DNA of 64,000 nucleotides, from contig NZ_CP016804.1 of the NCBI RefSeq assembly GCF_001886955.1, forward strand, positions 1,860,001 to 1,924,000, in the 5' to 3' direction. Shown piece by piece: positions 3,032-56,939 of the stretch. This DNA comes from Halodesulfurarchaeum formicicum. GTDB taxonomy: Archaea; Halobacteriota; Halobacteria; Halobacteriales; Halobacteriaceae. Position 1 is the first letter of the stretch, and each line of letters opens with the position of its first letter. The notes under the pieces are model-generated. The model was not told where the DNA came from and made no database searches. It saw nothing but the letters and a program-made list of their open reading frames with translations. The position numbers were made by a program, and so were the translations under genes.

Positions 3032-3108
3032 GCCTCGGGGTCGTACGGAAATCGAAGATTTCCGTGATGATGAGAATCGGAGATTCTCGAACTACTTGAC
3101 CCCGAGGC
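3032..3108. repeat. three-way-junction palindrome (possible IS200/IS605 right end or structured RNA)
   Basis: An 11-bp perfect outer stem, GCCTCGGGGTC (3032-3042)/GACCCCGAGGC (3098-3108), encloses two perfect hairpins. Arms 3045-3053/3057-3065 (9 bp, loop GAA) form the first and arms 3072-3078/3082-3088 (7 bp, loop GGA) the second. The folded form is a three-way junction in DNA or RNA. The intergenic stretch 2889-3180 contains no gene. Sequences of this style occur near ends of haloarchaeal IS1341-type elements, but no transposase is seen. Confidence 0.7.
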
Positions 3109-5854: not shown

Positions 5855-7218
5855 GGTCTCTCGTACACGATCTCGCCGTCGACGACCGTCAGGTCCACCG
5901 AAAGCTCGGAAGCGGGCCGGTCCCAGGGGGAATCAGAGAGCACGATTACGTCCGCTGGGGCCCCGACCTCGATCGTCCCCGGAGACCCGCCGCGGGCGAG
6001 TGGGCCACGCGTCCCCGCCTGCAGCGCCTCCGTCACGGCAAGTCGCTGTTCGGGGCCGGGCGCGGACCGCAGGCGCTCGATCGCCCGAAGCGGGGCCATC
6101 GAGAACCCGTCGCTCCCGAGTGAGAGTGACACGCCGGCCGCATGCAGGCGACCGTAGCGGCCATCACGCCCTGACTCGGCCCGGTCGAGCGTGTCCGGAC
6201 TGACGACGACCGTCGCCAATCGCGCTGCGAGCGCCCGTATCTGGTCGTCACGCACCCGATCGGCGCGATCGATCACGAGACCGGCTTCGAATTCCGAGAG
6301 CACCTCATCGAGGGCCTGCTCGTCGGTTGCCAGGGGCCGGACGGTGAGGCCCGCGGCCGATGCCGCCTCGCGGAGCGCCGCGAGCGACGGGAGCGTCGAT
6401 TCGTCGGCCAGTTGCTGGTCGACGTCGACCCGGATCGCCCCCATCCGCAATCGGTCGTTCCCCGCACCGGTTGGTATCCCAAGAGTTCTCGCCGCCGCGA
6501 TGGGGTCGCCGGCGTCCCCGACTGCCGGCCGGCGGTCCACCTGCACTCGCAGCGACAGCGCCCCCGCTCGATCGAGGGCCTGGTAGGCGCGGGCCGTCGT
6601 GGCGGTCAGCACGTCGTCCTGGACCCCAGTGACGCCGTGTCGATGGGCGTGTTCGATCCCCGCCTCGATCAGGTCCCGGGCCCGGTCACGGCCGGAAGCG
6701 AGTGCTTCCCAGACCGGCCGCGAATCGGGCCACTCGACGACGCCGCTCTCCACTGGCTCGTGGCCGATAGTGTCGACCGCGACCGAGTTGAGCGTCATTG
6801 TCTTCCGGTCCCCGCTGATCGCGACGACGGGCCGGGTCTCGCTCACGGCGTCGAGATCGGTCCGATCGAGCGAGGCGTTCGGCGAGCCGACACCGACGAC
6901 CCACTCCCGATCCCGTTGGGCGTCGGTCCGAAGTCGGGAACGCGCCGTCTCCGCATCCACACCGGAGAGATCGGCGCGACGGCGTCGAAGCCCGATTCCC
7001 AGCAGGTGGGCGTTCGCGTCCACGAACCCCGGGATCACCGGCCGGCCGTCGAGATCGACTCGGGTGGTCTCGATTCCCTCCAGAAACTCGACCTCGTAGG
7101 TGTCCGCGACACGGACGACGATACCGTCACGGACCGCGAACGCCTCGGCGGTCTGATCCGGGTGCGAGAGCGTGTGGACCTCGCCATCGACGAAGATCGC
7201 GTCGGCGGGTGCAGCCAT
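5851..7218 (-). CDS. amidohydrolase-family protein (YtcJ-like) with altered metal site
   Basis: 455 residues. It opens with the beta-strand leader IFVDGEVHTL and VDLDGRPVIPGFVDANAHL, and closes with the cap strand GAPADVIVLSDSPWD..VVDGEIVYERP, the standard composite fold of metal-dependent amidohydrolases. The usual HxH after PGFVD is changed to N-A-H, so one ligand is missing, and the protein is shorter than typical YtcJ proteins (about 530-560). GVTGVQDD and SLGSDGFSMAPL occupy the positions of later metal-site motifs. It may bind a single metal or be non-hydrolytic. Substrate unknown. The zinc-ribbon gene lies 44 bp upstream on the same strand. Confidence 0.8.
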   Translation of the reverse strand: MAAPADAIFVDGEVHTLSHPDQTAEAFAVRDGIVVRVADTYEVEFLEGIETTRVDLDGRPVIPGFVDANAHLLGIGLRRRRADLSGVDAETARSRLRTDAQRDREWVVGVGSPNASLDRTDLDAVSETRPVVAISGDRKTMTLNSVAVDTIGHEPVESGVVEWPDSRPVWEALASGRDRARDLIEAGIEHAHRHGVTGVQDDVLTATTARAYQALDRAGALSLRVQVDRRPAVGDAGDPIAAARTLGIPTGAGNDRLRMGAIRVDVDQQLADESTLPSLAALREAASAAGLTVRPLATDEQALDEVLSEFEAGLVIDRADRVRDDQIRALAARLATVVVSPDTLDRAESGRDGRYGRLHAAGVSLSLGSDGFSMAPLRAIERLRSAPGPEQRLAVTEALQAGTRGPLARGGSPGTIEVGAPADVIVLSDSPWDRPASELSVDLTVVDGEIVYERP

Positions 7219-54319: not shown

Positions 54320-54345
54320 GAAGGACAAACAATCGCCGCGTGACT

Positions 54346-56022
54346 ATGGCAGAGCGACGAATGCAGGGCCAGCCCATGATCATCATGGGGGACGACGCCC
54401 AGCGGATGAAGGACAAGGACGCACAGGAGCACAACATCTCGGCCGCCCGCGCCGTCGCGGACTCGGTACGCACGACACTCGGGCCGAAAGGGATGGACAA
54501 GATGCTCGTCTCCTCGATGGGTGACGTTACGGTGACAAACGACGGCGTCACCATCCTGCAGGAGATGGACATCGACGACCCCACCGCCGAGATGATCGTC
54601 GAGGTCGCCGAGACCCAGGAGGACGAGGCCGGAGACGGCACCACGACCGCCGTCGCCGTCGCAGGCGAACTCCTCAAGGAGGCCGAGGAGCTGCTCGATC
54701 AGGACATCCACGCGACTGCCGTCATCAAGGGCTACAACATGGCCGCCGAGCGGGCCCGCGCCGAGGTCGATGAGGTCGCGATCTCCGTGGACCCCGACGA
54801 CGAGGATCTCGTGCGCAGCGTCGCCGAGACCTCCATGACCGGCAAGGGCACCGAACTCGACAAGGAGCTTCTCTCGGATCTGCTCTACCGTGCGCTCCAG
54901 ACCGTCGCCATCGAGGCCGAGGACGGGTCCACCGTCGTCGACCTGAACGACGTCGAGATCGAGACCCAGACCGGGCGACAGATCGGCGAGAGCGAACTAC
55001 TCTCCGGGGCCGTCGTCGACAAGGACCCCGTCCACGACAACATGCCGACCGAGGTCGAGGACGCGTCGGTCCTGCTTCTCAACGAGGCCATCGAGGTCGA
55101 GGAGACCGAGACCGACACGACCGTGTCGGTCGACAACCCCGACCAGCTCCAGCAGTTCCTGGAGAAAGAGGAGGCCCAGCTGCAGGAGAAAGTCGACCAG
55201 ATCGCCGAGGTCGGTGCCGACGTGGTCTTCTGCCAGAAGGGCATCGACGACATGGCCCAGCACTTCCTCGCGAAGGAGGGCATCCTCGCGGTTCGTCGCA
55301 CGCGCAAGAGCGACATCGAGTTCCTGCAGGACGTCCTCGGCGCTTCGATCGTGACCGATCTGGATTCGGTCACCGCGGCCGACCTGGGCTCGGGTTCGGT
55401 CACCCGGGACGAGACCGACGAGATGTTCTACGTCGAGGGCAGCGGTGACGGCGCCCACGGCGTCACGCTCCTGCTCCGCGGCGCGACCGACCACGTCGTC
55501 GACGAGGTCGAGCGCAGCGTCACCGACGCGCTGGACGTCGCCTCCCAGGCGCTGACCGACGGTCGCGTGCTCCCCGGCGGCGGCGCGATCGAAGTCGAAC
55601 TGGCCGACCGCGTCCGGAACTTCGCGGACGGCGTCGAGGGTCGCGAGGCCCTGGCCGTCGAGGCCTTCGCCGACGCCCTGGAACTCGTCCCGCGCGTGCT
55701 GGCGAGCAACGCCGGCCTGGACTCCATCGACACGCTGGTCGAGATGCGAGCCGCCCACGAGGGCGGCGACCAGCGCGCCGGCCTGAACGTCTTCACCGGC
55801 GACATCGAGGACACCTTCGAGGCTGGCATCGTCGAGCCCGCACACTCGAAGGAACAGGCCCTGAGCTCCGCCTCCGAGGCCGCCAACCTCGTCCTGAAGA
55901 TCGACGACATCATCTCCGCCGGCGACCTCTCCACCGAAGGCGAGGAAGACGAAGGCGCCGGTGGCATGGGCGGCGGCATGGGCGGTATGGGCGGTATGGG
56001 TGGCATGGGCGGCGCGATGTAA
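54346..56022 (+). CDS. ths: thermosome (group II chaperonin) subunit
   Basis: 558 residues from the ATG at 54346. [31 protein letters not shown] (in parts), [15 protein letters not shown] ATPase motif, and GGGAIEVEL in the C-terminal equatorial half match archaeal CCT subunits. The tail ends in GGM repeats, typical of haloarchaeal thermosomes. It forms ATP-driven double-ring folding chambers. Heat-shock-like promoter upstream; downstream is the hairpin string at 56029-56244. Only one subunit gene is in the window; haloarchaea usually have two or three. Confidence 0.96.
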
Positions 56023-56028
56023 ACGCAC

Positions 56029-56244
56029 GTTTTGCTCTGCGGGGCGCCTTCGGCGCCCCTCGGCAAAACCTGTCGCGCAGGAGCGCAGCTCCTGCTGGAT
56101 CCCAAAAAGCTCCGCTTTTTGAGCACACTAAAATCGCGCCTGCTCCTGTCGCGCGGCCACAGGCCGCGCGGTAGTCCGCAGGCGCGACCGCGTGAACGCG
56201 GAGAAACCCGCGCCTCGGGTTCTATCGAACCGCTCGGCGCGGGT
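56029..56244. repeat. string of six consecutive stem-loops downstream of the thermosome
   Basis: Six palindromes follow one another. A: outer GTTTTGC (56029-56035)/GCAAAAC (56063-56069) round 8-bp arms 56041-56048/56052-56059. B: arms 56077-56084/56088-56095. C: 56103-56110/56114-56121. D: outer 10-bp 56134-56143/56178-56187 round 9-bp arms 56150-56158/56162-56170. E: CCGCG (56188-56192/56197-56201). F: outer 8-bp 56207-56214/56236-56243 round GGTTC (56218-56222)/GAACC (56227-56231). Most inner loops are 3 nt. The 352-bp spacer 56023-56374 has no convincing gene. Hairpin A may also act as the thermosome terminator. Confidence 0.75.
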
Positions 56245-56374
56245 ATGCTACTGGTGTGGTTTCGAACCCGTGTGATTGCAAGAGCTGAATTTTGCGCTAC
56301 ATTTTCGTTACTATCTGGATTGCTACAATCGGACGGTGATGAATCCAAGGCGCGATTTCAGCAGGTGGTCGTGT

Positions 56375-56659
56375 TCAATCGTCGGCAGTATACGCGGCTC
56401 CACGGTGTTCGATGCGGTGCACTTCCAGTACGTGGTCGTTCCAATTCAGGACACAGCCGAGTCGATACTGTCCGATACGGAGCTTCGAGAACGGGCCACC
56501 TGCCAGCGGTTCGAGGTAGTCATCAGGTTCACGCCACTCGGAGTCGACAATGTCGTCCAGCTTCGACACGATACGATCCTGGACGTGTGAATCGAGAGCA
56601 TCGAATTGATCGAGCGCAGCGGGAGCGAACTTCCAGGTCCAGTCCTTACTGGTCGACAT
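56375..56659 (-). CDS. RelE/ParE-superfamily toxin, second copy
   Basis: 94 residues from the ATG at 56659 inside the antitoxin 3' end. Pattern DWTWKFAPAALDQFDALDSHVQDRIVSKLDDI (in parts), PLAGGPFSKLRIGQYRLGCVLNWNDHVLEVHRIEHRGAAY (in parts) matches RelE: helices, then KLRIGQYRL and the final basic strand IEHRGAAY. Diverged from the copy at 1070-1396 but with the same layout. It overlaps the antitoxin gene by 14 nt. Composition is more AT-rich than surrounding genes. Confidence 0.85.
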   Translation of the reverse strand: MSTSKDWTWKFAPAALDQFDALDSHVQDRIVSKLDDIVDSEWREPDDYLEPLAGGPFSKLRIGQYRLGCVLNWNDHVLEVHRIEHRGAAYTADD

Positions 56660-56939
56660 CGTCGTCCATCGCTCCAACGACCTCGTCACGGTTTACCAGT
56701 TCCTCATCGCCGAGGCGCAAGCCATGTTCGCTTGCGGCAATCTGCTTCCACCCCTCGCGAGTGAAGGCAGGATGTTTGACTGCATCACGGATGGCGTATC
56801 GCAGAAACTCGCTCCGTGAGTTGAATCCCTCCTCTTTCCACGTCCCGTCGATGTCCTCAAGGAAGGCTTTGCTGATTCGGAGATTGACCTGAGTCATCTC
56901 CGGCTCGTCGTCGTTTGGAGCTGTTCCAGCACCGGACAT
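56646..56939 (-). CDS. ribbon-helix-helix antitoxin, second copy
   Basis: 97 residues from the ATG at 56939 (the longer in-frame reading of 85 further codons lacks gene-like composition). MTQVNLRISKAFLEDIDGTWKEEGFNSRSEFLRYAIRDAVKHPAFT (in parts) is an RHH strand and two helices; the acidic tail (NRDEVVGAMDDDVDQ) would bind the toxin. A 6-bp inverted repeat TATACA-N13-TGTATA (56942-56966) directly upstream is a candidate autoregulatory site. Confidence 0.85.
   Translation of the reverse strand: MSGAGTAPNDDEPEMTQVNLRISKAFLEDIDGTWKEEGFNSRSEFLRYAIRDAVKHPAFTREGWKQIAASEHGLRLGDEELVNRDEVVGAMDDDVDQ

Follow-up and report, generated by a model that had tools for sequence, protein, structure and literature searches.

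The window analysed here, a stretch of 64,000 nucleotides from Halodesulfurarchaeum formicicum, contains a thermosome gene whose stop codon TAA (56020-56022) is directly followed by a string of hairpins (56029-56244), which an earlier note suggested could be a class of modular palindromic element, a structured RNA or a multi-part terminator insulating a mobile toxin-antitoxin module. By inverted-repeat search and folding, we identified four stems of 8-9 bp, all perfect and closed by 3-nt loops (at 56041, 56077, 56103 and 56150), as well as nested outer stems (56029-56035/56063-56069, 56134-56143/56178-56187 and 56206-56214/56236-56244; Table 1). The 3-nt loops ascribed to the string hold for these four stems, but loops of 4 nt close the hairpin at 56188-56201 (TGAA) and the inner one of the last module (TATC). 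Folded as DNA, 56029-56244 reaches -81 kcal/mol, against -50.4 +/- 3.7 for shuffled sequences (z -8.2); folded as RNA it reaches -130.5 (z -8.5), and its opposite strand -134.5 (z -8.8). None of 200 shuffles matched the fold energy for DNA, RNA or the opposite strand, and z is about -8 whichever strand is folded, so the string is a real structure. The remark that hairpins of similar triloop style lie near 3045-3088 was also correct. An Rfam scan of the window at gathering score returned tRNAs only, and the string is without a family match.

Table 1. Features of the thermosome tail and related hairpins in the window
Feature	Position	Strand	Basis
Thermosome gene (host gene of the tail)	54340..56022	+	Open frame; orthologues in 31/31 relatives
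Module A	56023..56072	+	Inverted repeats, folding, covariance model R1 family
53-bp double-hairpin insert	56073..56125	-	Empty paralogous site; R2 match on minus strand, 56070-56127
Module D	56126..56187	+	Inverted repeats, folding, dispersed repeats
Small hairpin CCGCG-TGAA-CGCGG and AG linker	56188..56203	+	Folding
Module E	56204..56253	+	Inverted repeats, folding, BLAST
Two triloop hairpins of the same style as the string, elsewhere in the window	3045..3088		Stems at 3045 and 3072, loops GAA and GGA

Anatomy of the thermosome tail and its neighbourhood

BLAST of 56023-56260 against relatives resolved the string into separate dispersed repeat families, namely A (56023-56072), a middle block, D (56126-56192 in this comparison) and E (here about 56197-56253). 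Module A comprises the leader ACGCACG, the outer stem GTTTTGC/GCAAAAC, the internal loop TCTGC/TCG and the inner stem GGGGCGCC-TTC-GGCGCCCC (56041-56059). The insert holds hairpins at 56077-56095 (loop GCA) and 56103-56121 (loop TCC). Module D consists of the linker CACTAAAA, its outer stem and the inner stem CGCGCGGCC-ACA-GGCCGCGCG (56150-56170), and recurs in BLAST at G000:166000 in the same genome, at G018:966115 and at G002:724805. The place of the small hairpin is taken by GCGAGCACTCAGTGCTCGC in the tail of a second thermosome gene and in G002. Module E, with the inner hairpin GGTTC-TATC-GAACC within its outer stem, has relatives in the genomes G005, G016 and G017, and is missing from the G002 locus.

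Past the other thermosome gene of this genome (G000:165950-166065), A runs directly into D. Where the window copy reads GGCAAAACCTG, 53 bp and CACTAAAA, the paralogous tail reads GGCAAAACCTGCACTAAAA, which provides the empty site CCTG^CACTAAAA for the 53-bp block. Since the paralogous tail reads straight through, 56073-56125 is a two-hairpin insert that interrupts the right arm of A's outer stem. Relatives of this double hairpin were found with the model R2 in 47 of the 97 Halobacteria, and its arms covary, with 16 cells of two-sided change versus 5.2 in shuffled alignments, based on only nine sequences. In the second thermosome tail (L167, ~6080-6160), about four tandem copies of a ~20-bp unit TCGCGGAGAATAACGAACC follow D.

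Within the same genus, the G002 thermosome is 99% identical to that of the window, and in its tail A, the insert and D come after ~115 bp of hairpins whose GA lies on the sense strand; in G001, both thermosome genes are followed solely by sense-GA hairpins, in a different order. Besides the two thermosome tails, few intergenic indels separate G000 and G002, so turnover is modest overall in the window's own genus. The thermosome tails of G002 and G001 (L186, L187, L215 and L216) contain another hairpin-tail family, with GA/GA mismatches and GAA loops in gene sense; its module order is shuffled between congeners, and its polarity is opposite to that of A tails. A 46-bp piece at 1086-1131 of the window (TTGACATCCTCCCC...TATAC), which we take to resemble an IS605-type transposon end, is present in the window's genome and missing in G002. 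In G029, a genome without A, a short stretch that matches both the window query and the double-hairpin model recurs on contigs C1, C2, C5, C31 and C40.

A ParE-type toxin gene (Pfam PF05016, E 2.5e-5) and, beside it, a gene that probably encodes the antitoxin and has no Pfam match occupy 56375-56897 on the minus strand, between the string and an Lrp/AsnC gene. The toxin-antitoxin pair is missing at the orthologous G002 site, where the string is present, and no such pair accompanies A and D at the second thermosome gene. This comparison supports the view that the pair is mobile or was recently gained or lost, and does not support the suggestion that the string insulates it: the pair is an independent neighbour, on which the string does not depend.

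Range, position and turnover of module A

We searched about 85,000 genomes with the exact frame pattern TTTGCTCTGCG-N15-30-CTCGGCAAAA and found it in 112 stretches. Five of these lie outside the Halobacteria, all without stems; we rejected them as copies of A and take them as chance matches. A structure-based search with free arms, as the earlier note had proposed, found the family across the Halobacteria: the covariance model R1 detected A in 81 of the 145 sampled genomes and 38 of the 58 genera, with as many as 27 copies in a genome. The frame thus recurs widely with differing arms, which strongly supports a class of modular palindromic element. Among 120 genomes sampled across the phylum, all eight R1 positives were Halobacteria, and A was absent from every non-halobacterial genome sampled. 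Its presence is patchy, many relatives being without A at the same gene, and no match was found in viral contigs (exact pattern) or in plasmids and phages (window sequence). We found no published description of this hairpin-tail family in the open-access literature; its novelty is provisional, subscription papers lying outside our search.

We called genes on 1.30 Mb with a simple codon model; of the 79 copies of A with a sense gene upstream, 69 start 2-12 nt past its stop codon, in a single orientation. The following gene is convergent in 40 cases and co-directional in 32. Several convergent gene pairs carry two inverted A modules, one per stop, and one copy lies 8 nt past an intron-bearing tRNA. 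Recurrent hosts are the thermosome and the families ending in KNKQSGIEDFM, DDLFKFF and GEEQLIA. At two loci (L121, 560-740; L329, 1380-1520), an intact tRNA is followed 120-150 nt later by a copy of its 3' end, and A comes just after this copy; the tRNA 3' end is thus duplicated, and A follows the second of the two. A T5 tract occurs within 300 nt at 19% of A-bearing ends versus 17.5% of others, and within 60 nt at 1.6% versus 5%, while a T4 tract is found at 97% of A ends versus 19% of others. As the T5 frequency is alike with and without A, A neither provides nor substitutes for the known strong terminator signal, and we rejected it as a substitute for T5 terminators.

Among 33 diverse copies of A, 90.5% of the cells pair, and cells with two-sided changes number 100, against 36.6 in shuffled alignments and 11-23 in slid controls; because the copies are related, the shuffles somewhat overstate significance, a fault from which the slid controls are free. 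Although the first pattern prescribed the core pair of the outer stem, this pair is free at other loci and covaries there (G-C 152, A-T 6, C-G 5, T-A 5 and mismatches 3, total 171). Since the copies were picked by their conserved frame, the conservation of the frame is partly due to this choice, which leaves the covariation of the free arms unaffected. One-sided (G-U) intermediates are almost nil among the many two-sided changes, and counts of G-T versus A-C in the stems are too sparse to use.

Tails of the same genes in the congeners G114, G085 and G059 keep linkers such as GATGAAAAGCACTCCTCC and GTCGTCGGCCCGCTC, while the inner hairpins are swapped as arm pairs; in one congener tail the core is swapped too, from TTTTGC/GCAAAA to TTTTCC/GGAAAA. 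Flank identity between G114 and G085 is about 91-95%, and some tails are unchanged in A (groups g1 and g2). The outer 6-mer is common to 51% of same-gene pairs versus 10% between genes, and the inner arm to only 17% versus 9%; as the outer 6-mer follows the gene and the inner arm mostly does not, the tail stays and its inner cassette changes. A few inner arms of A recur across species. The double hairpin shows filled and empty orthologous sites between G059 and G114, and a second double hairpin of ~51 bp (TGAGCGAAAGC...GCTTCCGTAG) is present or absent, without target duplication, at three orthologous loci (groups g1 in G085, g8 in G059 and g9 in G114). In an automatic intergenic comparison of G114 with G085, hairpin-bearing pairs had a mean identity of 65% versus 82% for the rest; because this set holds only 12 pairs, some of which are gene-call gaps, the curated orthologues carry the argument for replacement. 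Together with the arm covariation in A and R2, stem replacement at orthologous sites supports the earlier reading that the structure, and not the sequence, is shared. The same inner arms of A were also seen with reverse-complement loops (TTC and GAA), as would result from an inversion of the inner hairpin at its site.

Loop size, GA mismatches and strand polarity

Perfect stems of at least 8 bp in intergenic haloarchaeal DNA show a strong excess of 3-nt loops, whereas the distribution in coding DNA is flat, so the triloop style is not due to chance; 4-nt loops are not enriched. The intergenic hairpins favour cGNAg triloops, GNA or TNC loops making up 90 of 125 intergenic versus 6 of 49 coding cases. 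Tandem mismatches are mostly TC/TC or GA/GA in intergenic stems and a random mix in coding ones, and TC/TC stands in a pyrimidine-TC-purine context in 78 of 87 cases. These counts come mostly from loci chosen for carrying A; an unselected sample of the window's own genome gave the same loop excess (14/16 in convergent spacers), and a small control of 50 kb from E. coli had no triloop stems. GNA loops closed by G-C give DNA mini-hairpins of extraordinary stability that contain a sheared G-A pair (PMC4686876). By general chemistry, the tandem GA mismatches would also pair in the sheared form.

The two strands differ consistently. Past A, the gene-sense strand carries TC/TC 56 times versus GA/GA 7 times when the next gene is convergent, and 35 versus 0 times when it is co-directional; the GNA loops and GA/GA mismatches thus lie on the strand antisense to the upstream gene. 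We rejected the GA strand as a 3' UTR of the convergent neighbour, since the polarity is the same with a co-directional next gene. The antisense strand is the more stable in 110 of the 115 copies with DNA parameters and in 105 of 115 with RNA parameters, compared with 46 of 110 in a coding control. The antisense rule is not universal among hairpin tails, because the tails of G001 and G002 have GA on the sense strand. A structured RNA, one of the possibilities raised before, is not favoured, given the empty Rfam result, the better fold of the antisense strand and the lack of enrichment of tetraloops.

Known systems and possible explanations

Extragenic palindromes are usually recognised by sequence and are often tied to a transposase. 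In the present family, linkers, position, orientation and fold persist although the stems differ from one congener to the next, so that a structure model recovers the family where ordinary repeat finders pick up only fragments of it. SMR-A elements of Haloquadratum walsbyi are ~110 bp long, with prominent terminal inverted repeats and high within-type identity, and their mobilisation has been termed enigmatic, while the PATEs of this species derive from IS605 ends (PMC3119063). Like the hairpin tails, both are haloarchaeal, without a transposase gene or target duplication, and are short elements inserted within the palindromes of others; we found such insertion for the 53-bp block within A (56073-56125) and at the orthologous filled and empty sites. 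They differ in that the units here measure 53-60 bp with two adjacent hairpins, that stems are replaced with the fold kept, and that units stand at stops in one orientation. R1 gave one clear match in 30 loci (100 kb) around Y1 transposases, TnpB-only transposons being left out; this is about background density and does not support A as a PATE or the end of a Y1 transposon. REPs and REPINs with RAYTs in bacteria are, like the hairpin tails, short dispersed extragenic palindromes, often paired (PMC3116915, PMC3733652). Unlike theirs, the shared part of A is linker and fold, the inner arms varying and the linkers being conserved, and no Y1 transposase (PF01797 only) was found in G007, G107, G140 and G016, which have 22, 27, 10 and 4 A modules.

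Mitochondrial double-hairpin elements are two-hairpin units whose presence differs among related species; their stems are conserved and their loops vary, and no flanking duplication was reported for those of Allomyces (PMC2800124). R2 likewise behaves as two hairpins forming a movable unit, a likeness by analogy only; it lies in archaeal chromosomes within a larger gene-tail element. Archaeal intrinsic terminators (T-tract, hairpin-assisted in Haloferax) resemble the tails in lying just past stops, where hairpins can contribute, and a hairpin motif is able to terminate transcription in Haloferax volcanii (PMC7237163). They differ from A tails, which are long and modular, have a frame common across genera and, near the stop, carry T4 tracts rather than T5 or longer. 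SMR-A elements and PATEs are the closest for insertion in palindromes, and REPINs and the mitochondrial elements for the general kind.

On balance, we lean towards regarding the string as a tail that belongs to the thermosome gene, one local case of a family, spread across the haloarchaea, of modular and non-autonomous palindromic DNA elements that exchange their cassettes. Each copy would consist of conserved linkers holding hairpin cassettes, set a few nucleotides past a stop or tRNA end in one orientation, and the preserved trait would be the fold: stems of 8-10 bp, mostly with cGNAg 3-nt loops, with neighbouring modules forming helices with tandem GA/GA mismatches on the antisense strand. 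As both arms change together while the linkers stay, cassettes are probably replaced via recombination or gene conversion between the linkers. Selection would act on the folded DNA strand, the strand asymmetry suggesting that the template strand folds as DNA. The placement of A, its single orientation and the presence of one module for each gene at convergent stops suggest a function connected with the gene end, where the folded tail might hinder read-through, perhaps as the multi-part terminator of the earlier note, or re-pairing of the transcript with its template. Such a 3' boundary is the least certain step, read from sequence features, and we would put it somewhat below an even chance. 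Still more tentatively, what is inherited may be the DNA fold itself, with cassettes swapped between the tails of different genes via the linkers and the template strand folding by a sheared-GA code acting at the gene 3' end. No enzyme or protein partner of the tails was found. If the reading as a gene tail with exchanged cassettes holds, it would open to genetic tests what marks the 3' ends of haloarchaeal genes, how transposase-free palindromes spread and whether selection acts on a folded DNA strand in a chromosome.

The modules could instead be selfish mobile palindromes that spread via a folded single strand and a putative enzyme and survive at gene ends because they do little harm there, the main rival account, which we consider unlikely. 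It agrees with the dispersed copies, the patchy presence, the filled and empty orthologous sites of two double-hairpin kinds without target duplication, the insert within the palindrome of A and the strand-specific fold, and explains inserts and patchiness equally well, but not the anchoring: the very tight stop spacing, the single orientation, the one module at each stop of a convergent pair, the recurrence of host genes from genus to genus and the inheritance of the outer arms together with the gene. Against it stand also the lack of a Y1 transposase in the A-rich G007 and G107 and the lack of copies in viral contigs, plasmids and phages with the queries used. A selfish origin and a gene-end role may both hold, for instance in a domesticated element. 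An RNA-level structure, in which a 3' UTR or terminator of the upstream mRNA is selected for pairing, seems decidedly improbable: the location directly past stops, the excess of T4 tracts, hairpin termination in Haloferax volcanii (PMC7237163) and a covariation that fits RNA as well as DNA are set against a sense strand with TC/TC mismatches and TNC loops that folds more weakly even with RNA parameters, an enriched loop size of 3 and not 4, and an unchanged T5 frequency.

Very improbable, in our judgement, is mutational upkeep, whereby palindromes are made and perfected by fold-back template switching in replication and tolerated without function at gene ends. The near absence of one-sided intermediates is consistent with it, and GNA mini-hairpins, being exceptionally stable in DNA (PMC4686876), could nucleate the fold-back; template switching should, however, erase mismatches, whereas TC/TC is kept with one polarity, linkers and position are conserved, and a few inner arms recur across species. 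Chance sequence drift, for which we found nothing in favour, has a negligible probability, being contradicted by the fold z-scores, the structural homologues across the Halobacteria and the covariation of the arms.
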